A stretch of 64,000 nucleotides of DNA from Arcobacter ellisii (GTDB lineage Bacteria > Campylobacterota > Campylobacteria > Campylobacterales > Arcobacteraceae). The stretch lies in the NCBI RefSeq assembly GCF_003544915.1, contig NZ_CP032097.1:2170001-2234000 (forward strand), written 5' to 3'. Both the position numbers and the translations under genes were made by a program. The notes under the pieces are model-generated. The model did not search any database, was not told the DNA's origin, and was given only the letters and a program-made list of their open reading frames with translations. Shown piece by piece: positions 41,789 through 64,000 of this stretch; positions within the stretch are counted from its first letter, which is position 1; every line of letters starts with the position of its first letter.

Positions 41789-42063
41789 TGAACTTTATAA
41801 TAACTTATGATATTCAAAATGATAAGCGAAGAAAAAAAATTTCTGATGAACTTGAAGCTTTTGGAATTAGAGTAAATTATTCAGTATTTGAGTGTGAATT
41901 AAATAAAACAAAACTAAAAAGACTAAGACTAAAATTAGAAGAAATTATTGATAAAAAAGAAGATAGTTTAAGATTTTATCATATATGCCAAAGTTGTATT
42001 CCAAAATCTTTTGAAATATGTGATAAAGCTGATATTTTTGAATCTCAAGAGCTTTTTATTTGA
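41785..42063 (+). CDS. cas2: CRISPR adaptation protein Cas2
   Basis: 92 residues of the ferredoxin-like Cas2 fold: MNFIITYDIQNDKRRKKISDELEAFG with the metal-binding Asp after a beta strand, then RVNYSVFECEL and a C-terminal region with two CxxC-like cysteines. It forms the integrase complex with the Cas1 part of the preceding protein. Last gene of the cas operon, ending at the CRISPR leader. Confidence 0.94.
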   Translation: MMNFIITYDIQNDKRRKKISDELEAFGIRVNYSVFECELNKTKLKRLRLKLEEIIDKKEDSLRFYHICQSCIPKSFEICDKADIFESQELFI

Positions 42064-42477
42064 TTTAAAAAAAGAAAAATCGATTTGAGAACTTTTTTAG
42101 CCCATTTTATGGCTCTTTTAGTTAAAATCACTTAATTAAAGTTAGCAAAATAGGTTTAATGAAAATCTATCTTTTGAGATTTGCGAACTTTTATTTTTGA
42201 TTAAGTTTAAAAGAGCCATATTTGTGCTCTTTATAAACTTATAATTTTATAAAAAATAGAAAATCTCAACTTTTCAAAAAATCAAAAAAAGGTTTGCGAA
42301 CTTTTTTCTTATTTAAAATGCCTAAAATAGGAGATATTTAAAAATTTATTGTCAAAATGATGAAGTTGTATTTTAAAAAAGGATATACTTTTGCGAACTT
42401 TTTACAAAGATTGATAAAATGAGAGTTTGAAAGATTTTGATTAAATTTTAAATTTTTAAATAGCCCATTTTATGGCT
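42064..42477 (+). promoter_or_regulatory. CRISPR leader with repeated motifs
   Basis: 414 gene-free bases between cas2 and the first repeat. The motif TTGCGAACTTTT (first copy TTGAGAACTTTT) recurs at 42085, 42181, 42294 and 42391, roughly every 100 bases. The 17-bp leader end TAGCCCATTTTATGGCT directly abuts the first repeat (42461-42477) and is also present at 42098-42114 without a repeat behind it. A 7-bp stem AAAGAGC/GCTCTTT spans 42210-42232 and may end cas transcription. The leader's position at this end fits the worn terminal repeat at the far end of the array. Confidence 0.75.
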
Positions 42478-44170: not shown

Positions 44171-44185
44171 AGAAAGAAAAATTTA

Positions 44186-44203
44186 ACGAACTTATATTTT
44201 CGT
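44186..44203. promoter_or_regulatory. 18-bp palindromic operator (site 4), 57-aa/Card1 unit
   Basis: ACGAACTTATATTTTCGT, 16 bases after the last trace of the array and ten bases upstream of a -10-like TATATT (44214-44219). It is the same palindrome as those beside the WYL gene, 13 kb away, and precedes the 57-residue gene and the Card1-like gene. Confidence 0.72.
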
Positions 44204-44256
44204 TATAAAAATGTATATTTCCATTTTAGATTTATTTAAAAAAGGAAATATACATT

Positions 44257-44430
44257 ATGAAAATATTTTTAAATTTTGCAATTTTTATCATTTTGATTTA
44301 TTCTTCTATAAAATTACATAAGTATTTACTTAAAAAATATAATAGTTCACCATTTACTCTGTTTAATGTAGTTTTATTTTTTGGTTCATTTTTTATTACC
44401 TCTTTTTTAATCTATTTTTTTGAAAAATAA
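44257..44430 (+). CDS. 57-residue two-helix membrane protein
   Basis: A short gene with AAAAGGA eight bases before the ATG. The product has a hydrophobic helix at about 3-18 (FLNFAIFIILIYSSI), a short basic loop (KLHKYLLKKYNSS) and a second helix at about 34-54 (FNVVLFFGSFFITSFLIYF), ending FEK-stop. Its family is unknown to me. It has its own -10 hexamer and WYL-type operator, and the Card1-like nuclease gene follows 54 bases later on the same strand, so it is probably an accessory protein of the CRISPR defence. Confidence 0.65.
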   Translation: MKIFLNFAIFIILIYSSIKLHKYLLKKYNSSPFTLFNVVLFFGSFFITSFLIYFFEK

Positions 44431-44483
44431 AATAAATTCAAATATAAAAAAAGATAAAATGATATTATTTATTTAGGACTAAT

Positions 44484-45569
44484 ATGATTTTAATTTCACT
44501 TCTTGGTGTTCACGACTCTTCAATTTTCCCTATTCTTTTCGAATTTAAAGACAAAATCAAAAAACACATTATTATTCATGATGACTCAAAATATGAAAAA
44601 ACAATTATAAAAAAAGTGATTAATTCAGAAGAAGAGTTTAAAAATTTTTATTCTCTAAATTATCAAACTTTTTCAATTCAAATTGATGAAGATTCTTATG
44701 ATTCAATTATTTCTTGTTATAAAAAAATTGAAATTTATTCAAATAATGATTTTAAAAATATCTATTTTAATGCAACTGATGGTTTGGTATCTTCTTCGAT
44801 AATTCTTTCAGATAAACTTCTTGACAATGGTGCAAGTGTTATAGCTTATGATATTTTTGATAATGGTTTTAATCTTGTGACAAAAAATTCAATGGAAAAA
44901 AGAAAAATCACTCAAAATATAGATATAAGAACTCACTTAATGCTAAAAGGATATAAGATTGTTTTCACTGGAGCTAAAATTGAAGCAGTTAAGAGAAAAA
45001 ATCATATATTAAAAATTTGTGAAAATATAGATCTATTACATGAATTTGCAAATAAAATCCAAAATCAAAGTATCGAAAAAATAAATGGTTTTGATGGATT
45101 AAAAAGTTTAATCTCTCAAATAGATAAACTTGATGATAAACCTTTTATTCAAGGTGGAATTTTTGAAGAATATATTTATTGGCTGATTGAAGATAACTTC
45201 GATTTTGACCAAGTTATGTTTAATGTAAAAGTGGAATTTGAAGAAAATGTTTTCAATGAATTTGATGTTTTGATGATTAAAGATAATCATTTACATGTAA
45301 TAGAGTGTAAATTAAAAAAATTTGTTGAAGGTGAAAATTTTGTATATAAACTAGATTCTGTTGTAGATTATTTAGATGATGATGGCAAAGGAATGATTTT
45401 AGTTATTGGTGGAGAAAATGATAAAATCACAACAAAAGGTAATCTAAAAAGAGCTTTTTCTTTAGGCACAAAAGCACGAGCGAGAAGTGCAGATATTTTG
45501 ATACACCATGCAAAAACTTTTAACAAAAATGAATTTTTAGACAATATTCAAAAACATTTTTTTAGTTGA
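44484..45569 (+). CDS. Card1/Can2-like CARF nuclease (DUF1887 type)
   Basis: 361 residues. The N-terminal half is CARF-like: ISLLGVHDSSIFPILFEFKD, then IYFNATDGLVSSSIILSDKLL as the ligand-site glycine/Thr region and IDIRTHLMLKGYKI. The C-terminal half is a PD-(D/E)xK nuclease: FEEYIYWLIED, Asp261 in NEFDVLMIKD and Glu274-x-Lys276 in VIECKLKK. Card1/Can2 proteins cut DNA and/or RNA when bound to cA4. No HEPN R-x4-H motif is present. It is the second gene of the unit led by the 57-aa protein. A tail GGENDKITTKGNLKRAFSLG resembles family members. Confidence 0.83.
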   Translation: MILISLLGVHDSSIFPILFEFKDKIKKHIIIHDDSKYEKTIIKKVINSEEEFKNFYSLNYQTFSIQIDEDSYDSIISCYKKIEIYSNNDFKNIYFNATDGLVSSSIILSDKLLDNGASVIAYDIFDNGFNLVTKNSMEKRKITQNIDIRTHLMLKGYKIVFTGAKIEAVKRKNHILKICENIDLLHEFANKIQNQSIEKINGFDGLKSLISQIDKLDDKPFIQGGIFEEYIYWLIEDNFDFDQVMFNVKVEFEENVFNEFDVLMIKDNHLHVIECKLKKFVEGENFVYKLDSVVDYLDDDGKGMILVIGGENDKITTKGNLKRAFSLGTKARARSADILIHHAKTFNKNEFLDNIQKHFFS

Positions 45570-48204: not shown

Positions 48205-48397
48205 AGTTATCTTAGTTATCCAAGTGAATATTTATCTATAAATTCAACTGATGATTAAATTCTGGAACTATCTCTTTTAATTTTGCTATTTTATCTTCAC
48301 AAACTAATAACTCTTCAATTTTTTGATTCAGTTTATTTATATCAAAATTAGTAGAACTTGCAACTGTGATAGATTCATATTTTGTTTTTTGGTCACT
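48205..48397. repeat. Duplicated segment, intact-gene copy
   Basis: Matches 46677-46875 at roughly 90%. It covers the last 50 or so codons of the pglF-like gene plus 31 bases of downstream sequence. One base is missing near 48251 relative to the other copy, so the gene here stops at PEFNHQLNL whereas the copy reads on for seven more residues. Confidence 0.75.
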
Positions 48398-50002
48398 ATC
48401 ATTTATCAATAACTCTTCATATAGTTTTTCTCCAGGTCTTAAACCACAGAACTCTATATTTATCTCATTTCTTCCACTTAGTTCAATCATTTTTTTAGCT
48501 AAATCAACTATCTTTATAGGTTCACCCATGTCAAGTATAAATATCTCCCCACCTTTTCCAATACTTGCAGCTTGAAGTACAAGTTCACAGGCTTCAGGAA
48601 TTAACATAAAATATCTTGTAATATCAGGATGTGTTACAGTTATTGGACCACCTGCTTCTATTTGAGCTTTAAACTTTGGAATAACACTTCCACTACTTCC
48701 TAATACATTTCCAAATCTAACAGCAACTATTTCTGTATTTTTAGAATCTACATTTTGTGCATATAATTCACAAACTCTTTTTGTAGTTCCCATTACATTT
48801 GTTGGTCGAACTGCTTTATCAGTTGATATTAAAACAAATTTTTCAACTTCATATTTGATAGATAAATCTATACAGTTTTTAGTTCCTATTATATTGTTTG
48901 AAATTCCTTCTAAAATATTATGTTCAACTAATGGTACATGTTTATAAGCAGCTGCATGAATAACGATTTGAGGTTTATATTTAGCAAATGTTCTTTCCAA
49001 GAACTCTGTTTTTCTAACCGTTTGCATAACTGGAATTACATTTTCATCTTTTAATTCTTCCATAATCGAATAAAGATTAAACTCACTATGGTCTAAAAGT
49101 ATTAATTGTTTTGCACCATAAGCTTTACATTGTCTGCTTATCTCACTTCCTATACTTCCACCAGCACCAGTTATTAGAACTACTTTATCTTTTATAAAAT
49201 TTTCTATTTGATTTTTATCTAAATCTTTTGGATGCCTTGCAAGTAAATCTTCAACACCTATATCTTTTAACTCTTTTTTATCATTTGAAGAAAGTGTGTT
49301 TATTATTTTTATATCTAAAATATTTAAGGCATTTAATTTTTCATAAATAGCTATTAACTCTTTTTGAGAATAATCTTTTGAAATAATAGCTGCTTCAATA
49401 CTTTTTGTTTTTACAACTTTTTTTAAATCCTCAAAATCATAAACTCTTAAATCAAAAATATATGTATTTTTTAAAATTTTATTTTCATCAATTATTGCAA
49501 CAGGAGTATAATGAAAATTCTTTTTATCACAAAATAAATTCTTAACAGTAGAATTTGCTCCAATAATCAAAGTATTTTTATATTTTGTACTTCCAGCACT
49601 TTCTAAAATAATTCTTTTTGAAAGACGCAATAGTGTAATAAAAACTAAAGAGAGCATAAAATCTATGATTATTATACTTCTAGCAAGTGGTTGCATATTT
49701 TCTTTAAAAATCAAAAATATTATAAAAAATATTGTATAAACAATAATATGTGCCAACAATATTTTTTTTACTTCATGTAAAGAAAAAAATCTCCAAGCAG
49801 TTCTATAAAGCCTAAAATAAAGAAAAACTAAAATTTTCATCGAAAAAAGTATTATAAAAATTGAGAAAAAATTATCGATAAAATTTGATGGTATTTGAAA
49901 ATTAAATCTTAAATTATACGCAAAATATAAAGTAAAAAGTGAAATAATAATATCACTTAACAAAAAAAATGATATTCTTTTCAATGGAGATGCTTTTAAC
50001 AC
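48236..50002 (-). CDS. pglF: PglF/WbpM-type UDP-GlcNAc 4,6-dehydratase
   Basis: 588 residues. Four N-terminal membrane segments (about 12-32, 45-65, 80-100, 108-128) anchor it in the inner membrane. A CoA-binding-like domain and then a large SDR domain follow, with GAGGSIGSEISRQ (NAD binding), HAAAYKHVPL and a modified catalytic region SIDKAVRPTNVMGTTKR lacking the usual Tyr-x3-Lys tyrosine, as in PglF/WbpM. It converts UDP-GlcNAc to a 4-keto-6-deoxy sugar, used for bacillosamine or related aminosugars. The C-terminus is cut by a one-base deletion relative to the duplicated copy at 46677. End of the glycan locus. Confidence 0.88.
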   Translation of the reverse strand: MLKASPLKRISFFLLSDIIISLFTLYFAYNLRFNFQIPSNFIDNFFSIFIILFSMKILVFLYFRLYRTAWRFFSLHEVKKILLAHIIVYTIFFIIFLIFKENMQPLARSIIIIDFMLSLVFITLLRLSKRIILESAGSTKYKNTLIIGANSTVKNLFCDKKNFHYTPVAIIDENKILKNTYIFDLRVYDFEDLKKVVKTKSIEAAIISKDYSQKELIAIYEKLNALNILDIKIINTLSSNDKKELKDIGVEDLLARHPKDLDKNQIENFIKDKVVLITGAGGSIGSEISRQCKAYGAKQLILLDHSEFNLYSIMEELKDENVIPVMQTVRKTEFLERTFAKYKPQIVIHAAAYKHVPLVEHNILEGISNNIIGTKNCIDLSIKYEVEKFVLISTDKAVRPTNVMGTTKRVCELYAQNVDSKNTEIVAVRFGNVLGSSGSVIPKFKAQIEAGGPITVTHPDITRYFMLIPEACELVLQAASIGKGGEIFILDMGEPIKIVDLAKKMIELSGRNEINIEFCGLRPGEKLYEELLINDSDQKTKYESITVASSTNFDINKLNQKIEELLVCEDKIAKLKEIVPEFNHQLNL

Positions 50003-50016
50003 AAAATAATCCTTAG

Positions 50017-50589
50017 TTAATAAAGTTTTGAATTATAATCAAAAGGTGATGAAATATCATTAAAATTTAATAATTTTTTATCAGCACTAGAGAGAATTAC
50101 ACACTCTTTAGGTATTTTCCAATCAATATTTAGATATTCATCATCATATTTTACTCCTATACTTTGATCTGGTGCAAAATATCTATCTATTTTTATATTT
50201 ACAATTGCATCTTCACTCAAAACTGAAAAACCGTGTAAAAAACCTCTTGGAATAAATAGCTGTTTTTTATTTTCACTACTTAATTCTATTGAAATATACT
50301 TTCCAAAAGTCGGACTTCCAACTCTAAAATCAACTGCAACATCTAAAATCTTTCCTTGTAAAACCGTTACAAGTTTTGATTGGGCAAATTCCAAAGTATT
50401 TGTATGTAAGCCTCTAATTACTCCATGTTTACTAAAAGAAATATTATCTTGACAAAAATCTACATTAAAACCTAAAAAGTTTTCAAAAGACTCTTTTTTG
50501 AAAGCTTCATATACAAAACCTCTATCATCAAAGTGAATTATTGGTTCACAAACTATAATTTCTGGTATTCCTTGCCTTAAATATTTCAT
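50017..50589 (-). CDS. rfbC: dTDP-4-dehydrorhamnose 3,5-epimerase-like protein
   Basis: 190 residues, RmlC cupin fold. FDDRGFVYEAFKKESF and DNISFSKHGVIRGLH (catalytic His in RGLH) are diagnostic; LFIPRGFLHGFSVLSE and RYFAPDQSIGVKYDDE follow. It epimerises dTDP-4-keto-6-deoxyglucose at C3 and C5. No rmlD reductase is found in the window, so either rmlD lies elsewhere or the epimerised sugar enters another branch. Overlaps the upstream MNT gene by four bases. Confidence 0.9.
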   Translation of the reverse strand: MKYLRQGIPEIIVCEPIIHFDDRGFVYEAFKKESFENFLGFNVDFCQDNISFSKHGVIRGLHTNTLEFAQSKLVTVLQGKILDVAVDFRVGSPTFGKYISIELSSENKKQLFIPRGFLHGFSVLSEDAIVNIKIDRYFAPDQSIGVKYDDEYLNIDWKIPKECVILSSADKKLLNFNDISSPFDYNSKLY

Positions 50590-51410: not shown

Positions 51411-52373
51411 TTATTCAAATTTCTTTTTTTTATCCACAAACTTCATACTTAATATTAGTAAAATCATCGATAAAACAAAAGCTACAAAAATATTTGACAC
51501 AAAATAAACTATTAAAAATAGTATTAAATTTAATCCTATAGAATAATTTGTTACTTTATAATGACTCCATCCAGCTTGAGTAAGTCTTTGATAAGCATGT
51601 TTTTTATGGGCTTGTGATAATTTTTCTTTATTTAATTTTCTTCTTATCAAAGTCAGAGTTGCATCAAACCAATAAACTCCAAATAAGATAATCCATACCC
51701 AAAAATTTGTTGATTCTTGATTTGCATAATATATGGTAAAAATTGCAATGTTATACCCTAATAGTGTACTTCCAACATCTCCCATAAATATTTTAGCCTT
51801 ATTCCAATTCCAATATAAAAATCCAATAGTTGCAACAGCTAAAACTAAAAAATGATTTCCACCAAATAAAACAAATCCTGCAAGTGCTAAAAACAGAGCT
51901 TCACTTCCTGCATAACCATTTATTCCATCTAAAAAGTTATAAAGATTTACAAACCAAATTATCATAAAAAATGCAAAAATATTTGTCAAAATTAGACTTG
52001 AAATATCAAAAATACCAAAAGTCAAAGTTTCAAATCCACCTAAAAAGTATAATCCTAAAACGGCTACAAAAGCTTGGATTATTAACCTTAACTTTGGGCT
52101 TAACTCATATATATCATCAAAAAAACTAATTATTGATATAACACTACCACATAATAAAGCAAAAAAAAGATTTTGCTCAATTTGATTTATAAAAAATAAG
52201 TAGAACAAACCAATAAACCAAGTTATTGATATTGCTATTCCTCCACCATGAGGTATAGGAATGGTATGGCTACTTCGTTCATTTACGGTAGCTACTAATG
52301 ATTTTTTTATCATATAATTTTTTATAACGTATGTTAAAAAAAATGAGATTATTAAAAGTATTATATAAATCAT
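51411..52373 (-). CDS. WecA/WbpL-type undecaprenyl-phosphate sugar-1-phosphate transferase
   Basis: 320 residues, about ten membrane segments. Signature blocks are HGGGIAIS-like start (SHTIPIPHGGGIA), SFFDDIYELSPKLR with the conserved DD, YNFLDGINGYAGSEA, and MGDVGSTLLGYN. It transfers a HexNAc-1-phosphate to undecaprenyl phosphate and should begin the repeat unit. The sugar specificity (GlcNAc, GalNAc or a 6-deoxy HexNAc from PglF) is not clear from sequence. Confidence 0.85.
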   Translation of the reverse strand: MIYIILLIISFFLTYVIKNYMIKKSLVATVNERSSHTIPIPHGGGIAISITWFIGLFYLFFINQIEQNLFFALLCGSVISIISFFDDIYELSPKLRLIIQAFVAVLGLYFLGGFETLTFGIFDISSLILTNIFAFFMIIWFVNLYNFLDGINGYAGSEALFLALAGFVLFGGNHFLVLAVATIGFLYWNWNKAKIFMGDVGSTLLGYNIAIFTIYYANQESTNFWVWIILFGVYWFDATLTLIRRKLNKEKLSQAHKKHAYQRLTQAGWSHYKVTNYSIGLNLILFLIVYFVSNIFVAFVLSMILLILSMKFVDKKKKFE

Positions 52374-52383
52374 TAAAGTATTC

Positions 52384-53199
52384 CTAATCTCTTATTATTT
52401 TATATATTTCTTTTATTATTTTTCGGGGCATTAATCTTATTAGTAATTTAAGTGATAAATTTTTTAACAATTCTATAAAATTTATAAACTTAACGTTATA
52501 CAAACTTGTCCAAAAATTAAATTCATATATAAGATATTTCCATCCTCTTCTTCTTTCTAATTGATTATACCCTGCTCTCATTTTTACCAAACTTTTTTGA
52601 ATGTTATATACTTTTGAATTATTCATTACCATTCTTATCCACAAATAATAATCTTCAAATGAATACATTTTTTTATAATTTCCAGCATCAATTACACTCT
52701 GTTTTTTAAACATAACAGCTGGATGATTTATAGGATTTCTCATCTTTGAAAATTTTATTATATCTTCATTATATTCAGGAACTTTTCTACTAGAAATTAT
52801 TTTATTTTCATCATTATCAAATTCATCAATCCAACTACTACACAAATCAATATTATTTTTGTTAAAAATCTCAATTTGTTCTAAGAATCTAGTTGGTAAA
52901 GATATATCATCTGTATCCATTCTAGCTACTAATTCATTTGTACATTCTTTTAAACCAACATTTAATGCATCCCCAAGTCCCATATTATTTTCTAAAGGTA
53001 CAATTTTCATTATTTCATTTAATTTATTTTTCCATTTGAAAATAGCCTGCATCAATTCTTCTGTTAATTTACCATCTAAAACTAATACTATTTCATTTGG
53101 TTTTAATATTTGTTCATCCCAAATACTAACCATCGCTCTATTAAAATAATTAGCATTTTCTTTATAATAAATTGACATTAATACTGAAAATTTATTCAA
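52384..53199 (-). CDS. Family 2 glycosyltransferase
   Basis: 271 residues, GT-A fold. VLMSIYYKENANYFNRAMVSIW is the N-terminal nucleotide-sugar strand, ELVARMDTDDISLPTRF carries the DxD (DTDD) and RNPINHPAVMFKK follows. Domain resembles galactosyl/GalNAc transferases of polysaccharide loci, but the specificity cannot be assigned. Start overlaps the end of the fucosyltransferase by four bases. Confidence 0.82.
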   Translation of the reverse strand: MNKFSVLMSIYYKENANYFNRAMVSIWDEQILKPNEIVLVLDGKLTEELMQAIFKWKNKLNEIMKIVPLENNMGLGDALNVGLKECTNELVARMDTDDISLPTRFLEQIEIFNKNNIDLCSSWIDEFDNDENKIISSRKVPEYNEDIIKFSKMRNPINHPAVMFKKQSVIDAGNYKKMYSFEDYYLWIRMVMNNSKVYNIQKSLVKMRAGYNQLERRRGWKYLIYEFNFWTSLYNVKFINFIELLKNLSLKLLIRLMPRKIIKEIYKIIRD

Positions 53200-54014
53200 A
53201 ACTTTATCCTTCTTTCATTTGGTATAAATATTTTTCTTAGATTATTAGGTGTCCAATATTCAGGCGATATTACAATACTATTTTCATTATTTGCTAATGC
53301 ACTCGCCCACATTGAAAATGTACTTGAAGATAAAATACGATATTTATATTTCCCAATTAAATAAAAATCATCGTATATACTATTTCCTATAAATTCATAA
53401 TTAATATCCAATTGTTCTAAAACTGTATTGGCATATTTTTTATCATCAGTAACTACTTTAAACTTATTCTTTTTATATTCATCTTTCATTATATTAATTG
53501 CATTAATATAATATTCTTTTGGAGAAATTACATTCCAACCAAGTTTTACAAAATCACCACCTCGAATATGAATAATACAACTTTGATCATCTTGTTCATA
53601 TTTAGTGGGTAAAAAAAAATCTTTTAATATTTCTATTTCTTTATCAAAATCTTCTTGAATTAAACAATCTTGAAAATAACCATCTAAAATCATAAATTGC
53701 TTGTTTGGATTTTTTAAAGCCTCTTGAAAATTTTTATCACTAATAAATGGATAAAAAGGTACTTTAAGAGGAAAAATTTTAGGAATTCTAAAATCAACTA
53801 TTCTATTTCTTATATAATTAATTTGAAGTTTTTTAAAATCAAAAAAATAAACAAGCTCATTTTTATGTTTTGCTTCATATTTTTGAAGTCCAGATAAATC
53901 AATAGATATATTATTTACACCTATCTTTTTTGCCAATAATAATGCGGCTGATAATTGGAATATTTGATTTCCTAAGCCACCTGCTAATCTTACTAAAATC
54001 AATTTATTTCCCAT
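53196..54014 (-). CDS. GT11 alpha-1,2-fucosyltransferase-like protein
   Basis: 272 residues. VRLAGGLGNQIFQLSAALLLAKK and HIRGGDFVKLG are GT11 motifs; the second motif is normally H-x-R-R-G-D-Y, so one Arg is replaced by Gly here. SSSTFSMWASALA matches the third conserved block. It would add L-fucose from GDP-Fuc in alpha-1,2 linkage. No GDP-fucose synthesis gene is in the window. Start overlaps the upstream GT6 gene by 11 bases. Confidence 0.85.
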   Translation of the reverse strand: MGNKLILVRLAGGLGNQIFQLSAALLLAKKIGVNNISIDLSGLQKYEAKHKNELVYFFDFKKLQINYIRNRIVDFRIPKIFPLKVPFYPFISDKNFQEALKNPNKQFMILDGYFQDCLIQEDFDKEIEILKDFFLPTKYEQDDQSCIIHIRGGDFVKLGWNVISPKEYYINAINIMKDEYKKNKFKVVTDDKKYANTVLEQLDINYEFIGNSIYDDFYLIGKYKYRILSSSTFSMWASALANNENSIVISPEYWTPNNLRKIFIPNERRIKF

Positions 54015-54789
54015 ATCTTAAAAATTTTTTCAATATTTTAACAATAAAAAAACGTATATTGTAAAATAATCCTTTATGCTTTATACTAATAATTTTTTCT
54101 TTATCTTGTACAATAATTTTTTTACTAATATTTATGTTATAATGCTGAGGATAGCAAAAACTTGGTGTCAAAATATTAAACTCTTCTTTATGTATCTGTA
54201 CATAATTATTTATGTGACTTTCATCATGCCAAATAGCCACTATACCTTCTGAAAAATCTTTGTCTATATTATAGTTTAATATTTCAGCCATATTAAGAAA
54301 TTCATCTTTTGTTCCTCCATTAAATCCACCACATACATAAACACTATCTTCTCTTTTTTCAGTATAAGCTAATGATTTTACATTTGTTTCATAAGTAAAT
54401 TTTTTAGGCTTTTTATTAAAAAATCCTGGATGTAAAGTTACAAATAAATCCTTATTTGCAAACAACTCACTCTTTGAAACTTTTTCACTAAAAAATAAAT
54501 TTGCATTACAAAAAATTAAATAATCCATATTATTAAAATTAGCTTTATTTTTCATAAATATTTTATATCTATATAAGGTAGGAAATGGCCAATCCATTTT
54601 TTCCTGGAAAATAGGATGTATTCTTTTATCTTTAATATTTAATAATTCTTCATTATCAGTAAATATAAAATAATGTTTTTCATCCTCAATTAAAAAATTT
54701 TCTTCACAACTTTTGTAAAAACCATCCCAAAATTTCCAATATTCTCCTGTACATATAAATAATATTCCTATTTTTTTAAGTCTATTCAT
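54004..54789 (-). CDS. GT6 glycosyltransferase (ABO-like)
   Basis: 261 residues from the ATG at 54789, which has GAGGA at good spacing; a TTG at 54804 would add five residues. Family 6 features are YFIFTD near residue 40, IHPIFQEKMDWPFPTLYRY, YLIFCNANLFF (NxN in place of DxD, typical of bacterial GT6), LHPGFF, VCGGFNGGT and IWHDESHINNY. Enzymes of this family add alpha-1,3-GalNAc or alpha-1,3-Gal to fucosylated acceptors, as in human A/B transferases and in Helicobacter mustelae and E. coli O86. It lies immediately before the fucosyltransferase gene. Confidence 0.85.
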   Translation of the reverse strand: MNRLKKIGILFICTGEYWKFWDGFYKSCEENFLIEDEKHYFIFTDNEELLNIKDKRIHPIFQEKMDWPFPTLYRYKIFMKNKANFNNMDYLIFCNANLFFSEKVSKSELFANKDLFVTLHPGFFNKKPKKFTYETNVKSLAYTEKREDSVYVCGGFNGGTKDEFLNMAEILNYNIDKDFSEGIVAIWHDESHINNYVQIHKEEFNILTPSFCYPQHYNINISKKIIVQDKEKIISIKHKGLFYNIRFFIVKILKKFLRYGK

Positions 54790-55951
54790 TATTTTTATCC
54801 TCAATTCTTCTTAAATAATATATAACAGTAATCATTAAAGAAATTAGACACCATATAAACATTGTAATGAGATAATTAATAGTTGCTATAAATCCATTTC
54901 TTAATATATATGGATAAAATGATACGATTGCTAATATAAAATATATTAATATCAAATGATTTAGATACTTGAGTTCAATTAATACTAATATTAATAAAAT
55001 TATAAATAAAAATGCAATAAACGAAGTAATAACAGATATTGGAGCTAGAATCAAATCATTAGTTATTGATCCGCCATATCCTATTAATCCTAACTTATTC
55101 ATACAAATTGCAGCTACATCAGGAAATAGAAAATCCATTTCAGATCGAAATAAAGGAAAAATAAAAGCTCTAAAGAAATGTAAACCATCATATCCACAAT
55201 TTTCTAAAGGAATATTATTTATAAGTATTGAATTACCTAAAAAAATATTTAAAGGGTCTCCCAAGAATAAAATTATAAAGTCATACAGAGAAAAAAATGA
55301 ATAATTACTGAACAAACTTCTACTAATACCTATAAAAATAAATAATGTTATGAGAACTAATATATTTTTAAAATTCCATCTAATTAAAATAATCATAAGA
55401 AAAAGAATTCTGAATAAACTAATTCTAGCACCTAATGTAATTTCTAATAATGATCCGAAAAATATAATAAAAATATATTTTTTATTACCATAAGCCAATT
55501 CTATAACTGAAGATATTAATGCAATGGAAAATACATATGATACATAATTACTATATAACAACCATCCAACATGTTCTAATACTTCATCCCTACCTAAATC
55601 GAAATATATAATTTTATAATACAATAATGGTAATCTAGAAATTATAAATACTGTTACTGTTATATTTACAATTATTAAATTAACTTTTCTAAATAATTTA
55701 TTCTCTTTAAACTCAAATTTAATCTTCTTTATTAAATAAATACATATAAATGTCATCAATAACAATATAATTAAATCTATTATTTGCAAAAAAATATGAT
55801 TTGTTGAAAATAAATATACATTATAAAAATTATTATCTAAATAATTATTTTCATATACAAAAAATGGAGCAAATAAATATAAAAAAAATAATATCATACT
55901 AGCAAGAATATATTTAGAGATTAAACTAGTTTTATAGTATTTTAGAAGCAT
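54782..55951 (-). CDS. wzy: Probable O-antigen polymerase Wzy
   Basis: 389 residues with about 11-12 hydrophobic segments and a large periplasmic loop near residues 215-275 (DPLNIFLGNSILINNIPLENCGYDGLHFFRAF). Wzy proteins have little sequence conservation. The call rests on topology, on the locus (wzx three genes upstream), and on the absence of any other candidate. Overlaps GT6 by eight bases. Confidence 0.72.
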   Translation of the reverse strand: MLLKYYKTSLISKYILASMILFFLYLFAPFFVYENNYLDNNFYNVYLFSTNHIFLQIIDLIILLLMTFICIYLIKKIKFEFKENKLFRKVNLIIVNITVTVFIISRLPLLYYKIIYFDLGRDEVLEHVGWLLYSNYVSYVFSIALISSVIELAYGNKKYIFIIFFGSLLEITLGARISLFRILFLMIILIRWNFKNILVLITLFIFIGISRSLFSNYSFFSLYDFIILFLGDPLNIFLGNSILINNIPLENCGYDGLHFFRAFIFPLFRSEMDFLFPDVAAICMNKLGLIGYGGSITNDLILAPISVITSFIAFLFIILLILVLIELKYLNHLILIYFILAIVSFYPYILRNGFIATINYLITMFIWCLISLMITVIYYLRRIEDKNNE

Positions 55952-55963
55952 ATTATAATTAAA

Positions 55964-56686
55964 CTATGAAATATTGCAAAATCTATTTTTCCATACATCT
56001 TTATGAACAAAAATTGTATTTATATAATTATCAGCATAAATAAAATAATTATTATTTAAGAGTGTCTCTATTAGATTATTTCTTTTTAATTCTTCACCAT
56101 TTTCAGAATAAGTCATTGTTTCAAGGCAAATTACTTTTGGATATGTATTTGAAAAATCTATTGAATTAAGAATTAAATCTTCTATGCCTTCTACATCTAT
56201 GGATAAAAAATCAGGGAATTTTGAATCAAAATATCTATCTAAAATTATTTTTATTGGAAGTATTTCTACTTTAGTAATTTTTTTAATTTTTATTCTCGAG
56301 TTTTCTTGAAGATATCGTGCTTCTTTTTCAGAAAATGTGCTCATTGTAGGTTCAGACATAATAAAAAAATCTATATTTCCTATAGTATCAGAAATTCCTA
56401 TATTTAAGTTTATATCTTTTCTTCTTAGAAAATTAAATCTTTTTATTAAGCTAGGATTTGGTTCAATGTTTATCCCTCTTGATCCATTTTTGTAAAATAT
56501 TGCAGTATTACTTAAATAATAGGGATCATGAGCACCAATATCCATATATGATGGATTCTTTATTTTTAACTGATTAAAAATAAACCTTATTATTAAATCC
56601 TCACCTTGTTGAGAAAAACTTTTTTTAGAGAAATACCCACTCAGTGTATACTTAAATCTTCTTAACTTATTCACTAATTCTGACAT
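55964..56686 (-). CDS. FkbM-family methyltransferase
   Basis: 240 residues. FSQQGEDLIIRFIF and YMDIGAHDPYYLSNTAIFY give the FkbM SAM-binding opening; GINIEPNPSLIKRF, LNIGIS and FLSIDVEGIEDLIL are the next motifs. Likely O-methylates a sugar of the surface polysaccharide. Overlaps wzx by 13 bases. Confidence 0.85.
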   Translation of the reverse strand: MSELVNKLRRFKYTLSGYFSKKSFSQQGEDLIIRFIFNQLKIKNPSYMDIGAHDPYYLSNTAIFYKNGSRGINIEPNPSLIKRFNFLRRKDINLNIGISDTIGNIDFFIMSEPTMSTFSEKEARYLQENSRIKIKKITKVEILPIKIILDRYFDSKFPDFLSIDVEGIEDLILNSIDFSNTYPKVICLETMTYSENGEELKRNNLIETLLNNNYFIYADNYINTIFVHKDVWKNRFCNIS

Positions 56687-57927
56687 TCATAACCTTTTCT
56701 TAATTTCTTTACGTTAACATAAACTGTGATAGTGTACACTAATGATGATAAAAACATCGTAAAAATCAAACCATTTATTGCAAAAATATTTAAAGCATAA
56801 TATCCACAAAATACAGTAATTAGAGCTGTAAAAATATTTGGTAAAATTAACTTCTTCATTTTTTTATAAACAAAAATTTCTATACTTAAAAATGCTCCAA
56901 TATTGGTTATTGCAGAAATAATAAATAAGTATACAATTAACCAAGAATGTTCTAAATATTTTTCACTTGTTAGTAAAATAATAATTTTATCATGAAACAT
57001 AAATAAAATAAATCCTCCAATAGTAAATAATATAAATAAATTTTTTATATTTTTGTTAGTAGATTTAATAATATATTCATTATTAATTAATTCTTTTTGA
57101 TAGTAAATTGGAGAAAAATAAGCGCTTAAAATACCAATTAACTGAGTAGGAAAAATTGTAGCTATATTATTTAACATATTAAAATATCCTACCCACTCTA
57201 AATCATAAAAATTTTTTATTAACCAAACTGGTGCATTTAAAGTAGTCCAACTAAATACTGTCCAAATTAAAAGAGGAGTTGAAAAAAATATAAATTTTTT
57301 ATTTAATATGTACAAATTTTTAAATCTTATTAAATTAGTTTTTAAAATAGAATTATTTATAAATAATATGTATAATATATTTATTCCGAGAAAACAATTA
57401 ATACTGATTAAAATATTCTTTATATCAATATTAAAATATTTATAAAGTAATATAACAGTTAATATTTTAAATATATTTTCATATAATTTTGACATAGTAA
57501 CTATATTTCTATTTCTTCTAAAATTTTCTATTGTTAACAATAAATTTCTGATAATTGTAAAAAAAGTAAATACTAGTAATTCCCATTTTAATTTATATAT
57601 TTCTTTGAATAAATCTATCTTTATTATTTCAAATAAAATTAAAATAATTATCATTTGTATTATTGAAATAATTATATATAAGCATATGGAATTAGAATAA
57701 TATCTTGATAAATTATTTTTGTGATTATTTAAATCTCTTGCAACAGCTTGATCAAAAGAAGAAAAAGGTAAAAGAAGAAAAAATGTACTTGCAGAGATTA
57801 AAAGAGAATATATTCCATATTCACTTACACTTAAATGTATACTTAATAGTTTTATAAAAATAAATCCTCCTATTAACACGACTATTTGTCCAATAACAAC
57901 TATTAAAAATTCTTTAGAAATATTCAT
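56674..57927 (-). CDS. wzx: Polysaccharide flippase Wzx
   Basis: 417 residues from the ATG at 57927, chosen because ATGA overlaps the preceding stop. A start eight codons upstream lies inside that gene and is less likely. Twelve or more hydrophobic segments in the MOP/MATE-like pattern: EFLIVVIGQIVVLIGGFIFIKL, SVSEYGIYSLLISASTFFLL, SSFDQAVARDL. It moves undecaprenyl-linked repeat units across the inner membrane. Confidence 0.82.
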   Translation of the reverse strand: MNISKEFLIVVIGQIVVLIGGFIFIKLLSIHLSVSEYGIYSLLISASTFFLLLPFSSFDQAVARDLNNHKNNLSRYYSNSICLYIIISIIQMIIILILFEIIKIDLFKEIYKLKWELLVFTFFTIIRNLLLTIENFRRNRNIVTMSKLYENIFKILTVILLYKYFNIDIKNILISINCFLGINILYILFINNSILKTNLIRFKNLYILNKKFIFFSTPLLIWTVFSWTTLNAPVWLIKNFYDLEWVGYFNMLNNIATIFPTQLIGILSAYFSPIYYQKELINNEYIIKSTNKNIKNLFILFTIGGFILFMFHDKIIILLTSEKYLEHSWLIVYLFIISAITNIGAFLSIEIFVYKKMKKLILPNIFTALITVFCGYYALNIFAINGLIFTMFLSSLVYTITVYVNVKKLRKGYECQN

Positions 57928-58799
57928 TGTATTTTCTTTAAAATAAAACATGGTATCAATAGTTTTAATAGTGATTTATAAAAATTTAAATCAAAAAAGT
58001 TTCTATATGAAATATTTTTAAATAAAAAATACTTAATTGCATATAGTTTATTACATTTCCCAAAACTACCAAGCCATCTAATATTCCATTTTCTTAACGC
58101 TTCATCAAAAATTGGTTCATTTGAATATTTTGAAATTATTTCGTATTCTGCATTTTGCATTTTTTGCAAATTAGAAGATAGGCTTAATGAATTACCTACT
58201 CTATAAAAAGATAAGTGTTTATCTACAAATCCAATTTGATTTTCTTTTGCTATTTTTAACCACATTTGGTAATCTTCAATATAACCTTTTTCATAATCAT
58301 ACTTCATATATATTTCTTTTTTTAAGAGTGTTGTTAAACTGTTTATAAAGAAGTTACCACAAAGTAAATCTTCAAATATGTATCCTTCTTTTCCACCATC
58401 TTTAATATTTCCTATTATTTCATCTTCAATATTTATTAAATGCATATTTGAATAAACCATAGAATATTGTGGATTATTTTCTAAATAATCTACTAAAACT
58501 TCAATCTTATCATTGACAAATGCATCATCTGAAGCTAACAATGAAATATATTTACCTTTTGCCAAATTTCTTAATTTCTCAATAGTAAATATTAATCCTT
58601 TATTTTCTTGTTTATAATACTCAAATTTATATTTCTTTAAAAGAGATTGTATTATTTGATCAGAATTATCAGTTGAACCATCATTTATAACAATTAATTC
58701 TATATTTTTATATGTTTGATTCATCACACTTTTAATTGCAAATTCAATATATCTTTCGTGATTGTATAATGGAACTAGAATAGATACTAATGGCTTCAT
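57924..58799 (-). CDS. Family 2 glycosyltransferase
   Basis: 291 residues. VSILVPLYNHERYIEFAIKSVM, ELIVINDGSTDNS and YISLLASDDAFVNDKIEVL (DD metal site) are the standard GT2 start; EDYQMWLKIAKEN is the later ED motif. Specificity unknown. Overlaps the next gene's ATG and the preceding gene by four bases each. Confidence 0.86.
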   Translation of the reverse strand: MKPLVSILVPLYNHERYIEFAIKSVMNQTYKNIELIVINDGSTDNSDQIIQSLLKKYKFEYYKQENKGLIFTIEKLRNLAKGKYISLLASDDAFVNDKIEVLVDYLENNPQYSMVYSNMHLINIEDEIIGNIKDGGKEGYIFEDLLCGNFFINSLTTLLKKEIYMKYDYEKGYIEDYQMWLKIAKENQIGFVDKHLSFYRVGNSLSLSSNLQKMQNAEYEIISKYSNEPIFDEALRKWNIRWLGSFGKCNKLYAIKYFLFKNISYRNFFDLNFYKSLLKLLIPCFILKKIQ

Positions 58800-59701
58800 A
58801 AATTCTCGATAAATATTATATTTTCATCTTTAATATTATCTATAATATAATTATTTAAATTTTCATCGTATACCCATTTTGATGGACTTATTACAATTTT
58901 ATTAATATTTTTATTAAGCCAAGAAGATAACCAACTAAATCCACTATTTGCTATAATATTATGTTTACATTGAGTCATTAAATAAAATTCTTCATAATCT
59001 TCAAAGTTCTCAATATATCTATGATTAATATCTTCTAGAAAATCAAAAGAATTCTTAACCCATTCTAAATCATCTGAAAAAATTAATATTTGGAAATTAC
59101 CTATTGTTTCTTCTAGATACTTAATCGCTTTTTTATAATACACTATATCGCAAGTACAGTGTAATTTAGAAGTTTCTTTATTATGCACAAAATCACCTCT
59201 TCTTACATGAAGAGATACATAACATATATTTGTATTAATATTTTGTATAAAAGTATTAACTCTAAGAGCATATTCAGATTTTAAAGTAAAATCATTTTGT
59301 AAAATATTCTTTATGTTGTTAAAATACTTATAACCTATCCACTCTCCTTCTAAATAAAGATCATTTCCTAAATTATTAAAATAATTTATAGTCATACTAC
59401 TTTTATTTGAGTAAGTTTTATAACTAATTAAATCTTTCCCTAAAAATCTATTTATTTTATTAGTAATTTTACAAATAATATTTTTAGGTCTTAACCGATC
59501 TATTTCTTTTCTTGATGCATTTTCTATATCTAAATTAAAATAACTTAACTTTAATTCTCTACTCGTATCAATTTTTCTTATTGAATCAAACCAAAATAAA
59601 TCTAATTTTAACTCTGTATCATATTTTAATGACAAACTTTTTGCAACTGCATACTTATGTAATTGACTGGCTAATCCACCCATAATTTTTATAATTATCA
59701 T
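58796..59701 (-). CDS. GT11 alpha-1,2-fucosyltransferase-like protein
   Basis: 301 residues. KIMGGLASQLHKYAVAKSLSLKY is the first GT11 block (G-Q changed to A-S-Q) and SLHVRRGDFVHN the second; NIIANSGFSWLSSWLN is the third. This is a second, divergent GT11 copy of the locus, about 20-25% like the first by eye. It might use another deoxyhexose than fucose. It begins one base after the acetyltransferase-like gene ends. Confidence 0.8.
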   Translation of the reverse strand: MIIIKIMGGLASQLHKYAVAKSLSLKYDTELKLDLFWFDSIRKIDTSRELKLSYFNLDIENASRKEIDRLRPKNIICKITNKINRFLGKDLISYKTYSNKSSMTINYFNNLGNDLYLEGEWIGYKYFNNIKNILQNDFTLKSEYALRVNTFIQNINTNICYVSLHVRRGDFVHNKETSKLHCTCDIVYYKKAIKYLEETIGNFQILIFSDDLEWVKNSFDFLEDINHRYIENFEDYEEFYLMTQCKHNIIANSGFSWLSSWLNKNINKIVISPSKWVYDENLNNYIIDNIKDENIIFIENL

Positions 59702-59702
59702 A

Positions 59703-60314
59703 CTAAACTTCCAACTTTCTAATTATTTTTGCAGGACAACCACCAGCTATCACATTTTTTGGAATAGATTTTATTACAACAGAACTATTAGCTATTACAC
59801 TATTATCTCCAATTGTTACACCTTTTAATATTTTTACATTAGAACCAATAAAAACATTTCTTCCAATAACTACTTTTGCTGTTTTTGGAATACCACTGAT
59901 TCTTCTATCTGGATGCAAATCATGAAAATCACTATCACTAACTTCAAAGTTTAAACCAATAAGTGTATTTTCTCCTATTTCAATCCCCTCTCCTTCACTT
60001 GTGATCATGAAATTATTATTAATAGTAACATGATTCTTTATTATAATTTTAGAATTACTTTTTCGAGCATCTATATATCCATAACCATTATAAAAAAAAG
60101 GGCTTCTCTTTACACCTAAATTAACATTTTTATCAAATAGTATAGTCCCTTCCCCTAATAATTGAGTTGGTTGATTATATATTGGACTCCCTATTACATT
60201 TTTACAATTTGATAAAATTTTATATTTCAAAACTCGTGGATATTGAAATACAATATATCCAAGCAAATTTTTAATTTTTTGTTTTACTTTGAAAATAAAT
60301 CTATCTATATTCAT
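59703..60314 (-). CDS. Left-handed beta-helix acyltransferase
   Basis: 203 residues with hexapeptide repeats from about residue 65 onward ([64 protein letters not shown]) and a C-terminal [14 protein letters not shown] typical of WbbJ/CysE-like O-acetyltransferases. Acceptor unknown; probably modifies a sugar of the repeat unit. Overlaps the aminotransferase gene by 14 bases. Confidence 0.84.
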
Positions 60315-61401
60315 TTATTACCTGAACAATATTTTTAGTATTTCCAATGCTTTGAATACCAAAAATAGGCAAACTCAAAACTTCATTATGAATTTGTCCA
60401 CTTATGGGATAGCTTTCTTTATTCCACTCTTTATAAGCATTTTGTTTATGAGGTGGAATTGGATAATGAATTAGTGTTTGAATACTATTATCAAGTAAAT
60501 ATTTTTGTAATTTATCTCTTTTTGTAATTCTTATTACAAACAAATGCCATACATGGTTATTTTGTTCTCTTACTGTTGGTAAAATCAACTTATCATTTTT
60601 AATATTTTGTAAATAATAGTTTGCTATTTCTCTTCTTTTTTCCACTTCATTATCAAGGTATTTTAGTTTTACTCTAAGCATAGCAGCTTGTATTTCATCA
60701 AGTCTACTATTAATACCTTTATAAAGATTTTCATATTTTTTATGACTTCCATAGTTTCCTAGTGCTTTTATAGCATTGGCAAGTTCTTCATCATTCGTTG
60801 TAACTGCTCCACCATCACCTAAAGCACCTAAATTTTTTCCAGGATAAAAACTAAATCCACTAGCATCTCCTAGATTTCCACTTCTTTTATCTTTAAAATA
60901 TGCACCATGAGACTGAGCTGAATCTTCTATAACTTTTAGATTATATTTTTTAGCAATTTCATTTATTTTATCCATTTCACAAGTTTGACCATAAAGGTGA
61001 ACTGGCAAAATAGCTTTTGTTTTTGATGTGATTTTTTCCTCTATTTTAGTTGAATCTATTAGATAAGTATTATTATCTGGTTCAACTAAAACAGGAACTA
61101 AATTATTCTGAGAAATCGCCAAGATAGAAGCTATATATGTATTTGAAGGCACAATCACTTCATCACCATCTTTCATAACTCCTAATTCTTTATAAGCTCT
61201 TAAGATTAAAATAAGTGCATCTAAACCATTTGCAACACCTATAGCATATTTTGTACCACAATATTGTGCGAATTCTTTTTCAAATTCTTTACACTCATTA
61301 CCTTGTATATACCAACCACTATCAATTACTCTTGTACAAGCTTCAATTAATTCTGTTCTATAGTGAGTATTTATACCTTTTAAATCTAGAAATGGAATCA
61401 T
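60301..61401 (-). CDS. fdtB: Sugar aminotransferase, DegT/DnrJ/EryC1 family (FdtB-like)
   Basis: 366 residues, PLP-dependent. [63 protein letters not shown] and [21 protein letters not shown] (Schiff-base Lys) are family motifs. It adds an amino group to C3 of a dTDP-3-keto-6-deoxyhexose. Neighbouring rmlA, rmlB, fdtA and an LbH acetyltransferase point to dTDP-Fuc3NAc; the epimer Qui3NAc is possible. Confidence 0.87.
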
Positions 61402-61913
61402 TATTTATTTTCCTTACATTCATCACAAATTAATTTTTCATTACATTTTTGCCCACATTTACAAACATAGCCTTTAAAAATTGCAGGATTACCATACCAG
61501 AGTTCTTGTATTCCAACATCTTTTGTTATTACACTTCCTGCACCAATCATTGCATATTCATTAATTGTTATTCCTCCAACAATTGTGCTATTTGCTCCAA
61601 TTGAAGCTGATTTTTTTATAGTAGTCTTTAAAAATTCTTTTGGATATTGTTTACTTCGTGGTAAAAAATCATTCGTGAAAGTTACATTTGGACCTATAAA
61701 TACATTATCTTCTAAAGTAATCCCATCCCAAATTTGTACTCCACTTTTTACAGTTACATTATTTCCTATACTTACATCATTTTCAATTAATACTTGAGCA
61801 TTTATATTGCAGTTACTACCTATTTTTGCATTTTTTAGAATTACACAAAATTGCCAAATATTTGTATTTTCTCCAATATTTTGTGTTTGTACATCTGCTA
61901 ATTTATGAATCAT
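61401..61913 (-). CDS. fdtC: Hexapeptide N-acetyltransferase (FdtC-like)
   Basis: 170 residues with left-handed beta-helix repeats ([58 protein letters not shown]). The C-terminus has [19 protein letters not shown], an extra cysteine tail like a zinc knuckle. It probably acetylates the 3-amino group made by FdtB. Ends at the ATG of fdtB. Confidence 0.8.
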
Positions 61914-62307
61914 TTCTTACTTCTTCTAAAAATTTATCATAATCAATAATATAATCACTAGCATCATAATATTCATTTGCTAAAACCATAAGTACACAAT
62001 CTGAGCTAAAATCATGCATAGTTCCCCAAATAAGCGCATCTTGAAAAAGACCTAAATTTGGTTTATTTAAATCAAATGTTTCTTTTGTTTTACCATTATC
62101 TAAAGTAACTTTACAACTACCATTTACAGCTACTAAAAACTGTTTAGTTTTATAATGTGAATGATTTCCTCTTGGAATACCCTCTTGTGTTCCATAGATA
62201 TAAAATACTCTTTTTACATCAAAAGGTATTTGTTTATTTGCTTCAAGAGCTACTAGTTGACCCCTATGGTCTCCTAAAACTTTAAATTCCTCTAATCTTG
62301 TTATCAT
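61903..62307 (-). CDS. fdtA: dTDP-4-keto-6-deoxyhexose 3,4-ketoisomerase (FdtA-like)
   Basis: 134 residues, cupin fold. [29 protein letters not shown] and [18 protein letters not shown] (metal/acid-base His residues) are diagnostic for FdtA/QdtA. It moves the keto group from C4 to C3 before transamination by FdtB. Overlaps rmlB by four bases and fdtC by 11. Confidence 0.87.
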
Positions 62308-63353
62308 TTCTTGATTCCATATTTAATTAAATACCACTCAATAGTCTTAATAATTCCACTATCAAAGTTCTCATCAGCTTTCCATCCAAGCTCATCCTCT
62401 AACTTTGTTGCATCTATTGCATATCTTCTATCATGTCCTGCTCTATCTTCTACAAATGTAATTAATTCTTTATATGAAGAATTATCAGCTTTTGGAACTT
62501 CTTTATCTAGAATCGTACAGATAGTGTTAACTATTTGAAGATTTGTTCTTTGATTTCTTCCACCGATATTATAAGTTTCACCTTTTTTACCATTATGGTA
62601 AACTATATCAATACCTTTACAATGGTCAAGTACATACAACCAATCTCTAATATTTTTCCCATCTCCGTAGATTGGAATATTTTGATTTGAAAGAGCTTTT
62701 CTTATAATTGTTGGAATTAATTTCTCATCATGTTGTTTTGGTCCATAATTATTCGAGCAGTTTGTTATTACTGTATTTAATCCATAAGTTTCATTATATG
62801 CTCTAATTATCATATCACTTGAAGCTTTAGAAGCTGAATATGGAGAGTTTGGTGCGTATGGAGTATTTTCAGTAAACAAATCATTTGGATTTTCCGAAAG
62901 TGTTCCATATACTTCATCAGTTGAGATATGATGAAATCTTGAGTTTTGATATTTTTCTTTATATTCAAATGGTTTATTCATCCAGTATTTATAAGCTACA
63001 TCAATTAGAGTAAAAGTTCCATTTACATTTGTTTGAACAAATACACCTGGATTTTTAATTGAGTTATCAACATGAGATTCAGCAGCAAAATGAATAACAC
63101 CCGTTATATCATATTCAGTGAATATAAACTCTACTAATTCTCTATTACAAATATCACCCTTTATAAATTTATATCTTGTATTATTTTCACACTCTTTTAG
63201 GTTTTCTAAGTTTCCAGCATATGTTAAAAGGTCAAGATTAATTAAATTATAATTTGGATATTTTTCTAAAAAATAAGGTACAAAGTTTGAACCTATAAAT
63301 CCAGCTGTTCCCGTTAATAGTATATTTTTATTTGAATTACTAAACATCATCAT
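62304..63353 (-). CDS. rfbB: dTDP-glucose 4,6-dehydratase
   Basis: 349 residues, SDR fold. [21 protein letters not shown] (NAD loop), [24 protein letters not shown], and [18 protein letters not shown] (Tyr-x3-Lys) are signature motifs. Converts dTDP-glucose to dTDP-4-keto-6-deoxyglucose, the common precursor for the Fuc3NAc and RmlC branches. Three ATG codons in a row (MMM) at the start make the exact initiation uncertain; it overlaps rmlA's end. Confidence 0.95.
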
Positions 63354-64000
63354 CTTTCACTAAATCATAAAGGTATTGTCCATAACCATTCTTTGAAAGT
63401 GGTTCTGCAATTTTTAAAACTTGTTCTTTAGAAATCCATTTATTGTTATAAGCAATCTCTTCCAAACAAGCCATTTTATAACCTTGTCTATGTTCTATTG
63501 TTTGTACAAATTGTCCTGCATCAAGTAAACTATCATGAGTTCCTGTATCAAGCCAAGCGAATCCTCGACCTAAAAGTTCTACTTTTAGTTTTGCTTTTTT
63601 AAGATATTCTTGATTTACAGATGTTATTTCAAGTTCACCTCGTTCACTTGGTTTTACATTTTTTGCGATTTCTATCACATCATTATCATAAAAATATAAT
63701 CCAGTAACTGCAAAATTTGATTTTGCTTTAGTTGGTTTTTCTTCTATACTTATTGCATTTCTATCTTTATCAAATTCAACAACACCAAATCTTTCTGGAT
63801 CCTTTACTTGATAACCAAAAACTATTGCACCATCTTTTATTGAAGCAGCACTTTTAAGCATAGGAGAAAATCCTTGTCCATAAAAAATATTGTCCCCAAG
63901 AATTAAACAAACACTATCTTTCCCAATAAACTCTTCTCCTAAAATAAATGCTTGTGCTAAACCATCAGGATTTGGTTGAATTTTATATTCTAATTTTATT
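63340..64000 (-). CDS. rfbA: Glucose-1-phosphate thymidylyltransferase, C-terminal part
   Basis: About 219 codons are present; the N-terminus lies beyond the right edge. The visible sequence has [34 protein letters not shown] and [34 protein letters not shown], typical of RmlA, and [18 protein letters not shown]. It makes dTDP-glucose from dTTP and glucose-1-phosphate. First step of the dTDP-sugar pathway in this locus. Confidence 0.94.

Follow-up and report, generated by a model that had tools for sequence, protein, structure and literature searches.

The 64,000-nucleotide stretch of the Arcobacter ellisii genome analysed here (the window; bases 2170001-2234000 of a genome consisting of one contig of 2.80 Mb) contains a glycosyltransferase pair, GT6 and GT11a, inside a Wzx/Wzy polysaccharide cluster that extends beyond the window edge into the genes for GDP-fucose. 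We hypothesize that this cluster encodes a fucosylated, Wzy-polymerised polysaccharide with a blood-group-A-like trisaccharide, a scheme which, taken as a whole, we regard as moderately probable. According to this model, the product would be a surface polysaccharide, probably the O-antigen of LPS. Beta-galactose would be placed by one of two GT2 enzymes, and alpha-1,2-L-fucose would then be added by GT11a (or else by GT11b, a second enzyme of the cluster) from GDP-fucose provided via ManC-Gmd-Fcl, which would yield an H-like Fuc-alpha1,2-Gal. GT6, as a metal-independent enzyme, would subsequently transfer alpha-1,3-GalNAc from UDP-GalNAc to form the A-like trisaccharide, upon which Wzx would flip the unit and Wzy would polymerise it. 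Gene content, fold and family, active-site residues and the nucleotide-sugar pathways were established by the analysis, while the sequence of the steps, the GT11 involved, the choice of GalNAc, the linkages and display at the surface are inferred.

ABO-like glycans of bacteria are already known from E. coli O86, Helicobacter mustelae and Bacteroides ovatus, and what is new is a further case in this genome. The case is complete and can be read from its genes; it belongs to Campylobacterota but not to Helicobacter, and its fucose supply is located in the same gene run. Natural anti-A and anti-B antibodies have been proposed to arise from bacterial ABO-like glycans, which can also serve lectins, viruses and phages as ligands. 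A role of such an epitope in colonisation or immune evasion, as raised in the initial annotation, is a speculative extension.

Polysaccharide cluster and GDP-fucose supply

All genes of the cluster (Table 1) are read from the same strand and all frames are intact. From the 5' end, the order is Wzz-like, galE, manC, gmm, gmd, fcl, rmlA, rmlB, fdtA, fdtC, fdtB, WbbJ-like acetyltransferase and GT11b, followed by GT2b, wzx, FkbM methyltransferase, Wzy-like, GT6, GT11a, GT2a, WecA-like, a short gene of no assigned function, RmlC-like and the FlaA1/WbpM-like dehydratase. Wzy, Wzz and WecA are names given by position and sequence character, without family match: the Wzy-like candidate matched no Pfam and no NCBIfam model, and the WecA/WbpL-like gene matched no NCBIfam model at 1e-20. 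Matches of the fdtB/fdtC region to an aminotransferase and a NeuD-like acetyltransferase stay under the cut-offs. GC content is lowest at wzx (18.5%) and at the Wzy-like gene (19.9%), compared to 25.6% in the window. Low GC at wzx and wzy is usual in exchangeable O-antigen cores.

Table 1. Coordinates of the cluster genes and of the genes for GDP-fucose supply (positions are those of the window unless preceded by an identifier)
Feature	Position	Strand	Basis
FlaA1/WbpM-like nucleotide-sugar dehydratase	48236..50002	-	PseB/FnlA-like domain, under cut-offs
RmlC-like epimerase	50017..50589	-	TIGR01221, 195 bits
WecA/WbpL-like initiating phosphotransferase (putative)	51411..52373	-	sequence reading
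GT2a glycosyltransferase	52384..53199	-	PF00535, 58 bits
GT11a, putative alpha-1,2-fucosyltransferase, divergent, GT6 partner	53196..54014	-	PF01531, HIRGGD, GT-B fucosyltransferase fold
GT6 alpha-1,3-GalNAc/Gal transferase, BoGT6a-like, NXN type	54004..54804	-	PF03414, NF041524, PDB 4ayj, fold match
Wzy-like polymerase candidate, hydrophobic	54782..55951	-	position and composition
FkbM-type methyltransferase	55964..56686	-	PF05050
Wzx flippase	56674..57951	-	PF01943
GT2b glycosyltransferase	57924..58799	-	PF00535, 89 bits
GT11b, second putative fucosyltransferase	58796..59701	-	PF01531, 93 bits; HVRRGD
Hexapeptide O-acetyltransferase, WbbJ-like	59703..60314	-	PF00132; NF007240 under cut-off
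fdtB, fdtC, fdtA-like, for dTDP-3-acetamido-3,6-dideoxyhexose	60301..62307	-	fdtA: PF05523, 158 bits
rmlB	62304..63353	-	TIGR01181, 461 bits
rmlA, crossing window edge	63340..64000	-	
fcl, gmd, gmm, manC, galE, Wzz-like (outside window)	L012:1213-6872		
fcl	L012:1213-2268		
gmd	L012:2277-3422		600 bits, cut-off 415
Phosphomannomutase-like gene, away from cluster	C1:949585-950934		

The initial annotation proposed an A/B-like surface glycan, stated that no GDP-fucose genes lie in the window, and named a genome lacking GDP-fucose synthesis as the finding that would speak against such a glycan. The statement on the window is literally true, as these genes start 212 bp past its right edge. A full de novo pathway was found in the genome, comprising Gmd, Fcl, a bifunctional GMP/PMI-type ManC (555 bits) and a phosphomannomutase-like ManB, which is 63% identical to its counterpart in a genome of the same order (G237); gmm (GDP-mannose mannosyl hydrolase) is also present. 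Fcl shares 54% identity with its E. coli counterpart and, as read from alignments, keeps S107, C109, Y136, K140 and H179 (E. coli numbering), the catalytic residues of the E. coli enzyme. It scores 463 bits against NF047922, under the cut-off of 500, with the match split by an insertion. Neither the fucose salvage enzyme Fkp nor ColD was found in the genome; the best match to ColD, an enzyme marked by a His that substitutes for the PLP lysine, is FdtB (34%). Based on the presence of Gmd, Fcl, ManC and a phosphomannomutase and on the lack of ColD and Fkp, the genome should make GDP-L-fucose de novo, mostly from genes of the same run.

Two other roles for these genes were considered. Synthesis of colitose instead of fucose is ruled out in this genome, given that ColD is missing and that Fcl keeps C109 and H179. 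A role of Fcl as a Campylobacter heptose enzyme was suggested by its best PDB match, 7anh (536 bits), which exceeds E. coli Fcl (367 bits), yet it is not preferred: in the printed alignments 7anh and 7cxt, presumably heptose enzymes, lack a Cys that this Fcl shares with E. coli Fcl, and GDP-fucose synthase is preferred for this reason.

An LPS core cluster some 8 kb to the left of the window includes a WaaL-like ligase gene, which fits an O-antigen. This gene argues against a cluster that is silent or displayed otherwise, for example not expressed or used for a protein-linked glycan, as do the frames of GT6 and GT11a, which are free of internal stops. A PglB-like oligosaccharyltransferase (L032:930-3158) abuts the related cluster of G237 and points in the other direction; we consider silence or another display very unlikely here, and O-antigen remains our preferred reading.

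Directly right of the cluster and outside the window, an apparent integrated mobile element (L012:7330-19205) carries a relaxase-like gene, a tyrosine integrase, a DnaB-like helicase and an N6-DNA methylase. Window positions 39557-45569 encode a fusion of reverse transcriptase with Cas1 (39557-41788) and a Card1-like nuclease (44484-45569), and between the two lies a CRISPR array with about 24 repeats (about 42477-44170).

The GT6 protein and its sugar donor

The genome encodes a single GT6. Its frame is 54004-54804 if opened at a TTG, or 54004-54789 if opened at the ATG chosen in the initial annotation. The protein carries FCNANLFF and IWHDESH, and its reading as a bacterial GT6 beside a GT11 gene is borne out by profiles, PDB match and an overlap of 11 bp with GT11a on the same strand. 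A profile search gives 97 bits with PF03414 and 253 bits with NF041524 (cut-off 250), and these matches above curated cut-offs, together with the GT-A fold, place it in CAZy family GT6. In a PDB search the closest solved structure is BoGT6a of Bacteroides ovatus (4ayj, E 4.4e-45; also 4cj8), with the human A and B transferases next in rank. The predicted structure (pLDDT 94) superimposes on BoGT6a with 1.8 A rmsd and on human GTA/GTB with about 2.7 A, at 36-37% sequence identity to BoGT6a. As in the metal-independent BoGT6a type, an NXN motif (N100-A-N102) replaces DXD, and both Asn are invariant in the aligned relatives.

The substrate contacts of BoGT6a (Table 2, PMC3961637) were mapped onto an alignment of 91 GT6 domains. 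All catalytic residues are retained; the catalytic and donor contacts conserved in the GT6 are T10, Y13, W66, T70, R73, N95-A-N97, H122, T134, G157, W189-HDE192 and K231 (BoGT6a numbering). Two donor contacts differ from BoGT6a: N69 is replaced by Pro, and the C-terminal clamp GGHxxLR (H239/R243) is missing. Of the diphosphate contacts K231 is kept, and lysines are found close to where GGHxxLR is absent.

The donor was assessed from the pocket positions equivalent to human 266/268, which are Leu/Gly in GTA and Met/Ala in GTB. The residues are Cys/Gly in the GT6 described here, Ala/Gly (A155/G157) in the GalNAc-using BoGT6a, which forms an A-type product from 2'-fucosyllactose, and Gln/Cys in the Gal-using WbnI of E. 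coli O86. The residue corresponding to T134 of BoGT6a is likewise Thr in this GT6, whereas WbnI has Pro. Moreover, the GalE of the cluster has a Cys aligned with human GALE C307 (Tyr299 in E. coli), a small residue as expected for a bifunctional GalE; the exchange Y299C makes E. coli GalE bifunctional (PMC5349592). The pocket Cys/Gly, Thr134 and the GalE Cys favour UDP-GalNAc and an A-type product. Type A is therefore likelier than type B, which is a lean and not a proof, and GalNAc transfer to Fuc-alpha1,2-Gal by GT6 is predicted from pocket residues only.

A blood-group-B-like determinant would arise by the same scheme if GT6 used UDP-Gal, like WbnI. UDP-Gal is also supplied by GalE, and the donor rule is built on very few tested enzymes; it is broken by the GT6 of genome G173, with Tyr/Ser at the two pocket positions, which has a GT11 neighbour and may be the H. 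mustelae A enzyme. Since Thr134, Cys155 and Gly157 are closer to BoGT6a than to the Pro, Gln and Cys of WbnI, a B-type product appears quite unlikely to us.

Putative fucosyltransferases and the linkage of GT6 with GT11

GT11a is assigned to CAZy family GT11 by its match to PF01531 (56.9 bits, cut-off 23.9), by the motifs HIRGGD (HxRxxD) and SSSTFS (SxFS), and by a GT-B fucosyltransferase fold. Comparison with PDB sequences by phmmer yielded no match for GT11a. Its predicted structure (pLDDT 87) matches the GT-B fucosyltransferases NodZ, POFUT1 and Arabidopsis FUT1 with Foldseek probability 1.0 but TM-scores of only 0.45-0.58. Given these scores, and with the heptosyltransferase WaaC also among the top fold matches, the donor of GT11a is not fixed by fold alone; GDP-fucose as donor and an alpha-1,2 link to galactose are putative. 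The HIRGGD motif was considered as a sign of inactivity, which is ruled out: in other GT11 enzymes the motif reads HIRMGD, HVRLGD or HVRCGD, its sole invariant residues being H, R and D.

The second of the two GT11 genes of the genome, GT11b, lies about 5 kb from the pair and was absent from the initial annotation. The two proteins are 31% identical, with HIRGGD in GT11a vs HxRRGD in GT11b. In a quick GT11 tree, GT11a and its copies in two sister clusters, in G237 and on contig L041, form a long isolated branch, GT11b belongs to the main bulk of the family, and neither is confidently near a characterised enzyme. In the sister clusters the GT2a-GT11a-GT6, GT2b and GT11b modules are 51-79% identical to those described here (GT6 and GT11a 74-76%), while wzx and wzy have been replaced (27-29%). 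Based on adjacency and on the joint conservation of GT2a-GT11a-GT6, we favour GT11a, and not GT11b, as the partner of GT6.

The association of both families was surveyed more widely. A scan of the genome collection with the single GT6 protein gave nothing, and an alignment-based scan gave 211 loci. Of these, 80 named loci were kept, which belong to many phyla and were identified solely through their similarity to GT6. A GT11 gene lies within less than 200 bp in 34 of these, is fused to GT6 in 3, lies within 5 kb in 21 and farther away in 2; 14 loci with full flanks have no GT11 nearby, and in 6 the flanks are too short to tell. GT6 and GT11 are direct neighbours in 33 of the 51 loci having both as separate genes, with 9.3 (sd 2.7) expected if the GT6 position is shuffled among genes. 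Among 397 Campylobacterota genomes, GT11 is found in 65 and GT6 in 12 (one of the latter is a weak match and was put aside); 9 of the 11 clear GT6 genomes contain GT11, compared to 56 of the 386 others (Fisher P 2e-6, relatedness ignored). The excess of neighbours, the fusions and the co-occurrence support the notion that the acceptor of GT6 is usually the product of a GT11.

These data bear on a further explanation, by which fucose and alpha-GalNAc or alpha-Gal are present in the glycan, not arranged as an ABO trisaccharide: GT11a would form another linkage or use another donor, GT11b would fucosylate elsewhere, and the GT6 acceptor would be unfucosylated. The divergence of GT11a and its unplaced position in the tree, the more typical GT11b, the WaaC match and the GT6 loci without GT11 are consistent with this. 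We nevertheless consider such an arrangement unlikely, because the overlapping GT11a and GT6 stay together in three clusters that differ in wzx and wzy, and because GT6-GT11 neighbourhood is far above chance, with fusions among the loci. The ABO-like trisaccharide remains preferred.

The natural fusions were found in bins assigned to Magasanikbacteria, Kuenenia and Hoeflea (L066, L103, L105); such polypeptides may perform both the H and the A/B step. Synechococcus phage B23 (MN695335.1) has adjacent GT11 and GT6 genes overlapping by 4 bp (L133:2225-3735), its GT6 having a DAD (DXD) motif and a Gln/Cys donor pocket.

Related clusters and known systems

The cluster of G237 (L032:9106-16661 and L033:26-7548) follows nearly the same plan as the one described here, with colitose genes instead of fcl. 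Its ColD is 66% identical to E. coli O55 ColD and has an SHH motif where the PLP lysine would be expected; its ColC is 59% identical to ColC and 41% to Fcl. Searches of G237 found no Fkp, and no further Fcl-like match scored above 68 bits. GT11b of G237 lacks HxRxGD, GT11a and GT6 are intact, and an extra GT11c lies beside colD. In vitro, GT11 enzymes such as WbgN of E. coli and human FUT2 accept GDP-colitose as well as GDP-fucose (PMC11987014). Together with the colitose genes, this donor tolerance predicts that the product of the GT11-GT6 pair of G237 is probably an analogue of the H/A determinant with colitose, although GT11c could be the colitosyltransferase instead.

Since the same pair is accompanied by colitose and not fucose genes in G237, a GT11-GT6 pair alone is no proof of an ABO epitope. 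The A/B-like glycan of the initial annotation was proposed from this pairing, which is insufficient; a fucose-dependent ABO-like determinant, leaning to A, is nevertheless best supported. Judging by gene content, the nucleotide-sugar genes would decide the epitope, and in this genome these are for fucose. The fucose and colitose sister clusters offer a natural comparison of nucleotide-sugar supply vs transferases as the decider of the epitope. A broader possibility, which we put forward tentatively and hold to be rather doubtful, is that GT11a-GT6 constitutes a mobile ABO-like cassette using fucose or colitose according to the neighbouring genes, with a true A determinant here and a 3-deoxy colitose version in G237.

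The pairing had also been likened to E. coli O86 and H. mustelae. The comparison with H. mustelae holds for adjacency: in this species of the same phylum, GT6 lies beside a fucosyltransferase gene (HMU12050/HMU12060), and blood group A antigen was shown on its LPS. Unlike there, the present genes are part of a repeat-unit cluster of the Wzx/Wzy type, which also contains Fdt and Rml genes. The O86 cluster was reached via O55 WbgN, as a DNA search for E. coli O86 with Histophilus GT6 gave nothing. It likewise combines GT6 and GT11 with wzx, wzy and genes for mannose/fucose precursors in a single Wzy-type cluster, but GT6 and GT11 are not adjacent there. WbnI is 34% identical to the present GT6 and has a Gal-type pocket (P/Q/C), and GT11a shows no close relationship to its O86 counterpart.

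Among 150 relatives, GT6 was found in this genome only, apart from a single weak fragment in a different genus of its family. This near-absence suggests that the GT11a-GT6 module was probably acquired laterally. The contig L041, assigned to a Candidatus Gracilibacteria bin, has a 76% identical copy of this module and a GC content of 22.8%, and is probably a misbinned Campylobacterota contig.
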